Of a stretch of 37,776 nucleotides of DNA, positions 18,314-20,391 are shown piece after piece. The notes under the pieces are model-generated. The model was not told the origin of the DNA, ran no database searches, and saw nothing but the letters and a program-made list of their open reading frames with translations. The DNA is from a virus. Within the stretch, counting starts at the first letter, position 1. Every line of letters starts with the position of its first letter. Where the stretch lies: positions 1 through 37,776 of the IMG/VR virus record IMGVR_UViG_3300023082_000024, one strand, 5' to 3'. The translations under genes were made by a program, and so were the position numbers.

Positions 18314-18811
18314 CTATGCCGCGTCAATGACGGTCCAGTCATCCGCGAGCATATCAGTCTGAGACGCGAGCCAACCTGGCTGCATCTCGCCAGTGGCTGT
18401 TTTCATGTCGATATGGGGGTTGATCGTGAACGATCCTGTGATGCCGGCCTTGTGGTACGCGCTGCCCTCGCGGATCCCCGAAACTACAGAACCAGGATCA
18501 AGAACCAGCCACATGCCTTTCCCGTTCCAGCCAGTACGAGCAACGCGCAGCCCCTTCTTTAGACACTCGATAGCTAAGCCGAATGGCATGCCACTGGTTT
18601 TGCGGTAAGCATTCTCAAACTGCTCTTTGGGCGACCAACTAATGTATCCAATATGGGCAGGATGGTTCGGTTTTCCGCCGTCCGTGTACTCGACCAAATA
18701 GCCTTCGTCGGCGCCGTCTTCATCTTCAGGAAGCGCCCAGCCCCGGTAATCGTTGTAAGCCAAACGAGTCATAGCTAACCCAATCACGATCTTTGTTCCA
18801 ATGAATTGCAT
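18314..18811 (-). CDS. DUF2829/Tad2-like putative anti-Thoeris protein with extra N-terminal domain
   Basis: The ATG at 18811 is chosen (AGAGGA upstream) over a longer frame. Residues 1-72 form a domain seen in other phage proteins (GTKIV.., RGWALPEDEDGADEGYLVEY, YISWSPKEQFENAYR). Residues 75-165 match DUF2829: FGLAIECLKKGLRVARTGWN, GKGMWLVLDPGS and the ending GWLASQTDMLADDW. Some DUF2829 proteins are Tad2, which binds the cyclic ADP-ribose-type signal of the bacterial Thoeris defence and so blocks it. It lies in the leftward early block beside RusA, a sensible place for counter-defence. Family call by eye is strong; anti-Thoeris activity is inferred. Confidence 0.8.
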   Translation of the reverse strand: MQFIGTKIVIGLAMTRLAYNDYRGWALPEDEDGADEGYLVEYTDGGKPNHPAHIGYISWSPKEQFENAYRKTSGMPFGLAIECLKKGLRVARTGWNGKGMWLVLDPGSVVSGIREGSAYHKAGITGSFTINPHIDMKTATGEMQPGWLASQTDMLADDWTVIDAA

Positions 18812-18836
18812 GTTAAATCCTCTTCCGTTGGTTGAA

Positions 18837-19758: not shown

Positions 19759-19931
19759 GAGCCTTGCTCCAGTTCGATAAGTCTCTGCCCCATAAGCTCT
19801 AGAGTCCTAACTTGGGTTTTTTTAACACCTACCAGCGCAGCGACTTCGCGAACCGGAACACCGTCTGCACGAAGTCTGGCGACACGCTTAGATTTTGCTC
19901 TGTTTTGAAGGACATCCCGCTCAGAACTCAT
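19755..19931 (-). CDS. Small HTH protein (58 aa)
   Basis: A short gene found by reading between neighbours. The start ATG at 19931 and stop TGA at 19755 both overlap adjacent genes by four bases (ATGA), a strong sign of a real coupled gene. The protein has a basic N-terminus (NRAKSKRVARLR) and a helix-turn-helix-like stretch, GVPVREVAALVGVKKTQVRT (residues 24-43). It probably binds DNA; the target is unknown. Confidence 0.68.
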   Translation of the reverse strand: MSSERDVLQNRAKSKRVARLRADGVPVREVAALVGVKKTQVRTLELMGQRLIELEQGS

Positions 19932-20158
19932 ATCTTCAGCTCTTTCATGAGTGCGGCATAGGCCTTCTGGCTCTTAATAAAACAAGATTTACAGCGATGC
20001 GTAACTATAGGGTTTGTAAGTGAGTCCCTGCCTTTTTCAATTTGCTCGCCACATTCGCACCGGCATATCCAGCGCGGCCCACGACCTTTCTGGCCTTCCA
20101 CTCTGCGAACAAGTGTGAGTTTGCCAATCTTAATTCCAGGTATCAGATGATGCTTCAT
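19928..20158 (-). CDS. Small zinc-binding phage protein (76 aa)
   Basis: The start at 20158 (MKHHLIPG) is chosen because it overlaps the upstream stop by ATGA. The sequence IPGIKIGKLTLVRRV followed by WICRCECGE and HRCKSC is the usual form of small phage proteins carrying a treble-clef or zinc-ribbon (Cys54, Cys56, Cys58 region and a distal CxxC). These are often found beside HNH endonucleases, but no nuclease motif is present here. Confidence 0.7.
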   Translation of the reverse strand: MKHHLIPGIKIGKLTLVRRVEGQKGRGPRWICRCECGEQIEKGRDSLTNPIVTHRCKSCFIKSQKAYAALMKELKI

Positions 20159-20391
20159 GCCATCCCCGCCAGCACGATCAGCACCGTGAAAATGCCAGCG
20201 CTCCAGCCGAGCAGGAAGGGGATAACAGCGCTGCCTGTTGAATCCGAAGATTGCCCAATGGTCGGGCCGTACATGCAGGTCGTGAAGGGTAGTTGTGTGC
20301 ACCTTAGCTCGCGGGCATTGTACTTTTTCATGTCCGCATAACTTGGGTAAGGATCAACATCAGGTTCAACTGCCGTTGTTTGATCATTCAT
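20155..20391 (-). CDS. Small membrane protein (78 aa)
   Basis: Not recognised. Residues 1-52 are polar; the C-terminus is one membrane span (AVIPFLLGWSAGIFTVLIVLAGMA). The ATG at 20391 follows a CTGGAGATTGACC box with good spacing; a TTG two codons upstream is less likely. The 71 bases upstream (20392..20462) hold no gene, only this box and a small GCGCC/GGCGC hairpin. Confidence 0.66.
   Translation of the reverse strand: MNDQTTAVEPDVDPYPSYADMKKYNARELRCTQLPFTTCMYGPTIGQSSDSTGSAVIPFLLGWSAGIFTVLIVLAGMA

Follow-up and report, generated by a model that had tools for sequence, protein, structure and literature searches.

The DNA studied here, a viral sequence of 37,776 nt (IMG/VR record IMGVR_UViG_3300023082_000024; "the window" denotes this whole stretch), encodes a protein whose C-terminal half the original prediction assigned to the Tad2 (DUF2829) family and whose N-terminal 72 residues it described as an extra domain that could alter oligomer or ligand choice. 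This raises the question of which signal the Tad2-like half would trap and what the additional domain contributes. The ligands of characterized Tad2 family members are gcADPR, His-ADPR, and/or cyclic dinucleotides; one member also goes by the name AcrIIA7.

The predicted gene is real and is located on the minus strand, which had been left unstated (Table 1). It reads from an ATG at 18811 to a stop codon at 18314-18316 and encodes a 165-aa protein beginning with MQFIGTKI and ending with DDWTVIDAA. Since the ribosome-binding site GGAAGAGG sits 7 nt upstream of this ATG, it was preferred over the TTG start of a longer, 193-aa ORF, which was set aside. A profile search with the 165-aa protein matched PHROG 872 over residues 2 to 162 (E=4.6e-56), and the sole Pfam family detected in it was Tad2-like PF11195 (residues 75 to 162, E=1.1e-24). 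In comparisons with the closest relatives (L002 to L005), dN was 0.12 to 0.15 and dS was >2 or saturated, with the N-terminal and Tad2 halves behaving alike; strong purifying selection acts on each of the two domains. A scan for promoters and terminators yielded nothing above chance level. The large terminase of the window shared ~70% identity with its counterparts in podoviruses of Pseudomonas, for example vB_PaeP_FBPa42 and YA3, and the gene itself is flanked by packaging genes on one side and by a region with a RusA-like resolvase, an HNH nuclease, and a DnaB-like helicase on the other. TerS, RusA, and DnaB homologues are kept nearby in the relative L005. An HNH endonuclease-like ORF was also noted in the same minus-strand gene run.

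Table 1. Positions of the gene, its parts, and a neighboring ORF in the window
Feature	Position	Strand	Residues	Basis or remark
N-domain + Tad2-like CDS	18314..18811	-	165 aa plus stop	PHROG 872 architecture, like phage N4 gp49
Ribosome-binding site GGAAGAGG	18819..18826	-		7 nt before ATG
N-terminal module	18596..18811	-	1-72	Alignments; mixed strand/helix fold
Tad2-like domain (PF11195)	18326..18589	-	75-162	Pfam, PDB sequence matches, Foldseek
GWNGKGM, beta1-beta2 loop motif	18512..18532	-	94-100	Part of the pocket described for Tad2
Variable region	18374..18511	-	101-146 (46 aa)	Between GWNGKGM and WLASQTDMLADDW
WLASQTDMLADDW, beta4-alpha3 motif	18335..18373	-	147-159	Other side of the Tad2 ligand pocket
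HNH endonuclease-like ORF	19931-20302	-		PHROG 374, E=2e-9

A profile match, sequence matches in the PDB, and the predicted fold all support assigning the C-terminal half to Tad2/DUF2829. The PF11195 match scored 87.1 bits, versus a curated cutoff of 25, and covered the full profile (1 to 73). Among PDB sequences, matches were obtained to SptTad2 (8wjd, E=6e-17), HgmTad2/AcrIIA7 (2.5e-15), SPO1 Tad2 (8sme, 6e-12), and ModTad2 (9eib, 7e-12). An AlphaFold2 monomer model of the 165-aa protein, built from a 51-sequence alignment (mean pLDDT 88), retrieved 24 PDB chains with Foldseek at E<=1e-3, every one of them a Tad2, including 8wjd (E=2.9e-8) and ModTad2 chain 9eib_B (TMt 0.80). With a pTM of 0.58, the model does not fix the mutual placement of the N-domain and the Tad2 domain. 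The border between the two was placed near residues 72 to 74, consistent with the original prediction, and the motifs it quoted are all present. Moreover, the family motifs GWNGK.M and W..SQTD..A.DW are both intact, conservation of the pocket being judged from motifs only; GWNGKGM is the same or one residue off in SPO1 Tad2, SptTad2, HgmTad2, ModTad2, and N4 gp49. The window protein resembles SPO1 Tad2 (8sme/8smf) and ModTad2 (9eib) in having the Tad2 fold (TM ~0.7 to 0.8 on target length), the GWNGK.M and W..S.[ST]D..A.DW motifs, and a similar loop length, but in contrast to these single-domain proteins of ~88 to 90 aa, it adds the N-domain.

The gcADPR pocket of Tad2 lies at exactly the beta1-beta2 and beta4-alpha3 motif loops, and the cyclic-dinucleotide site of HgmTad2 and SptTad2 is carried by a long insertion between both motifs (review, PMC12043709). 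The intermotif region comprises 37 aa in N4 gp49, 42 aa in both SPO1 Tad2 and ModTad2, 46 aa in the window protein, 54 aa in SptTad2, and 60 aa in HgmTad2. The loop studied here falls between both ligand classes and is nearer in length to the ADP-ribose-binding Tad2s (42 aa) than to the cyclic-dinucleotide binders. Since 3'3'-cGAMP is not a ligand of SPO1 Tad2 (PMC11722364) and ModTad2 is a His-ADPR binder (PMC13299392; 9eib), we infer from these sequence comparisons, with moderate confidence, a ligand of the ADP-ribose type. The loop, 8 to 14 aa shorter than in SptTad2 and HgmTad2, and the behavior of SPO1 Tad2 both speak against the alternative that the domain is an anti-CBASS sponge for cyclic dinucleotides of the HgmTad2/SptTad2 type or binds these together with ADPR signals. 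We regard that alternative as unlikely, although SptTad2, the closest solved protein in both sequence and fold, was solved with cGG (8wjd), WLASQTDMLADDW is closer to SptTad2/HgmTad2 than to SPO1, and Acb4, a related partner family of the N-domain, binds cGAMP. The GWNGKGM and WLASQTDM core is identical to that of SptTad2/HgmTad2. The original statement that the family sequesters the Thoeris nucleotide was plausible for this protein but applies to only part of the family, as other members bind cyclic dinucleotides.

An ADP-ribose-type Thoeris signal, either a gcADPR isomer or His-ADPR, is most likely what the Tad2 half traps. The putative pockets would be built by the GWNGKGM loop and the SQTD-ADDW segment, and the domain most likely assembles like known Tad2 proteins, as a tetramer of V-shaped dimers. 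With its signal trapped, the Thoeris effector would never be switched on.

The N-terminal domain does not set this protein apart and is part of a widespread architecture. A tblastn search with the window protein found 373 related phage records, in 89 of which, including that of N4 gp49, one place covered at least 80%. PHROG 872 and N4 gp49 already represent the N-Tad2 layout, which occurs in at least 89 phage records; the window protein adds one more member to this known two-domain phage family. It shares the domain order with N4 gp49 over its full length, at 45% identity; the two differ in the loop (37 aa in N4 and 46 aa here) and in the Acb4 gene, gp48, found directly upstream in N4 and not in the window. 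Labels given to this architecture in phage records include "DUF2829 domain-containing protein" and, in several cases, "anti-CRISPR protein." The latter name, together with the inclusion of AcrIIA7 (8kbi, 9kzr) in PF11195, would fit an AcrIIA7-like inhibitor of Cas9 instead of a signal sponge. This is very improbable, however: the PDB entries for AcrIIA7 are those of HgmTad2, with cADPR and cGG bound, and the domains joined to the N-domain are sponges, not Cas9 inhibitors.

In alignments, the module follows the motif YIGTK..A..MTR..YN.YRGW.LP..E.G.D.GYLVEY.DGG..N....GYISWSPK..F..AY. Aromatic residues occupy most of its conserved positions (Y38, Y42, Y56, W59, F65, and Y69), and residues are invariant across distant phages. 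Two models, the second of an N-domain joined to crAss001_48 (pLDDT 94), gave the order strand-helix-strand-strand-helix, with an N-domain pLDDT of ~97 over residues 11 to 40. The N-domain matched no family in Pfam, its profile had no significant match among PDB sequences, and in fold searches with both models it matched no ligand-binding domain at E<0.1. We do not claim a relationship to chromodomains, as these matches were weak and nonsignificant (E at least 1.2) and none recurred among the 50 matches listed for the second model. Against PDB folds, the second model had no solved relative (best E=0.5 among the 50 matches listed); fold comparison therefore cannot choose between docking, multimer building, and a second ligand site. 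No Acb2/Tad1 hairpin was among the same 50 matches, and we do not claim such an identity for crAss001_48.

To survey the partners of the N-domain, IMG/VR and GTDB were searched with the N-domain alone and also with the full protein, which together with hand-picked phage and plasmid matches resulted in 335 ORFs. Collection scans used a five-sequence N-domain profile, an 18-sequence diverse profile being too divergent. The N-only searches gave 164 proteins after removal of redundancy at 80% identity. Tad2 was present in 101 of them, crAss001_48 (PF21825) in 30, Acb4 (PF13876) in 24, and Tad1 (PF24729) in 4, so that 147 (90%) bear at least one of these families, 126 bear a validated sponge domain (Tad2, Acb4, or Tad1), and 12 combine two of the four. 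The N-domain stood alone in 11 proteins of 57 to 105 aa, and 6 had other tails. At least 3 of these 6 belong to the same families in diverged, truncated, or broken form: the L256 tail is a Tad2 (Pfam, E=3.6e-14), and those of L285 and L293 resemble Acb4 and crAss001_48 domains that have been cut or broken. We know of no function for crAss001_48.

An independent Pfam check confirmed PF13876, PF21825, and PF11195 in shared polypeptides with the N-domain. Tad1 was joined to it in L209, L215, L276, L283, and L286, and the L276 tail matched PDB Tad1 8kbb at E=1.1e-34; an Acb4 segment of an N-domain protein matched 9e4w at E=0.0018. These Acb4, Tad1, and crAss001_48 proteins resemble the window protein in carrying the N-domain in one polypeptide, but differ in their unrelated C- or N-terminal partner folds. 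The orders observed were N-Acb4, Acb4-N, N-crAss, crAss-N, N-Acb4-Tad2, N-crAss-Tad2, and Acb4-N-crAss. Three N-Acb4-Tad2 polypeptides appear to be two-sponge fusions (L188:3010-3846, L296:4992-5750, and L300:4998-5970), and six others combine the N-domain, the crAss001_48 hairpin, and Tad2 (L290, L292, L314, L317, L150, and L220). On an N-domain tree, the minimum numbers of partner changes were 25 for Tad2, 17 for Acb4, and 25 for crAss001_48, counts that are rough because a 70-aa tree is poorly resolved. An ORF of Klebsiella phage K17alpha62 (L167:1995-2399) encodes an intact N-domain + crAss001_48 protein and is enclosed in a feature annotated as a broken "virion RNA polymerase," apparently a misannotation. 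A further, unnamed C-terminal domain accompanies the N-domain in L119:4989, L120:4947, and L162:1992-2537 (Rhodoferax phage P26218 gp06); it has the motif DYAWAWHCNIAM.AFDAGCPH..ANEGAARF.QLLAGVDTR and no match in Pfam or PHROG. The unnamed partners in L119/L120/L162 and in L155, like the 11 proteins with no partner at all, were counted against our preferred reading of the N-domain as a counter-defense module.

Tested members of PF13876 (Acb4) bind 3'3'-cGAMP and block CBASS, several Acb4 homologues have extensions that their discoverers left unexplained, and the sponges Acb4, Tad1, and Tad2 have no structural relationship to one another (PMC11722364). Since the N-domain is joined to three structurally unrelated sponges, it is tied to signal sequestration and not to one fold, which argues against a role in Tad2-specific tuning; it is therefore probably a shared part of the phage anti-immunity toolkit. 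The N-terminal 72 residues would accordingly form a separately folded mobile module, reused with Tad2, Acb4, Tad1, and the crAss001_48 hairpin, that most likely provides a function general to sponges. Candidate roles are docking near a host defense complex, holding several sponge units together, and a second small-molecule site. The last of these, a ligand-binding N-domain that would turn the protein into a sponge for two ligands, is possible but doubtful. It is consistent with the repeated joining of the N-domain to known sponges and its occasional occurrence on its own, with its aromatic conserved positions, and with the nonsignificant fold matches beyond Tad2 being mostly chromodomains; however, a docking or assembly domain fits this pattern equally well, and the fold searches gave no ligand-binding match at the threshold stated above. 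The mosaic nature of phage accessory loci and the unnamed partners (L119 and L155) would also suit a domain that recombination spreads among accessory genes as a neutral passenger or linker, with no part in counter-defense. We consider such a passenger quite unlikely, given that the N-terminal half is under purifying selection as strong as that on the Tad2 half, that its residues are invariant across distant phages, and that ~90% of its occurrences are with four particular families.

N-domain genes were also found clustered with stand-alone sponge genes. In nonredundant N-domain loci, 46 of 54 stand-alone sponge ORFs were located <=1 kb from the N-domain gene, and most of those near it are Acb4 genes <300 bp away. 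In Escherichia phage N4, gp48, annotated as hypothetical, is an Acb4 (PF13876, E=8.8e-35); its gene overlaps that of gp49, which consists of the N-domain and Tad2. Judged by these assignments, N4 appears to carry a two-sponge pair, gp48-gp49 (L161:2606-3456). Vibrio phage 1.205 has a crAss001_48-Tad2 gene followed by a separate N-domain gene. The N-Tad2 or N genes of Pseudomonas phage phiAH14a (L175:9989-10459) and Vibrio phage 1.205 (L336:2770-3761) lie among the head genes, immediately ahead of the one for the major capsid protein. In the whole window, no further N-domain, Acb4 (PF13876), Tad1 (PF24729), or crAss001_48 domain was found, and the 165-aa protein itself had no Pfam match to PF13876 or PF24729; the absence of a second sponge gene from the window was weighed against the preferred reading.

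Taken together, the protein is probably a sponge of the Tad2 type that traps a Thoeris signal of the ADP-ribose type and carries a mobile counter-defense module common to unrelated sponges. Sponges have so far been described one family at a time, mainly as single-domain proteins. Outside several central papers on sponges (Yirmiya 2024, Li 2024, Sabonis 2025, Tal 2026, and the Hadary 2025 preprint on sponge diversity), we found no description in the literature of an N-domain shared by Tad2, Acb4, Tad1, and PF21825 or of multi-sponge polypeptides, and the N-domain itself appears to be unreported so far. We give even chances to the broader proposal that it is an unrecognized mobile counter-defense module common to at least three validated and structurally unrelated sponge families (Tad2, Acb4, and Tad1) which marks a class of modular multi-sponge polypeptides, such as N-Acb4-Tad2, and that crAss001_48 would, by association, be a further binder of immune signals.

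A domain common to Tad2, Acb4, and Tad1 offers a handle for finding more counter-defense proteins by association, and PF21825 becomes a candidate counter-defense domain through its association with the N-domain. The finding also raises the question of why the same module is bolted onto unrelated sponges. Since the laboratory phage N4 has an Acb4 gene beside its N-Tad2 gene, this question is directly testable in N4.
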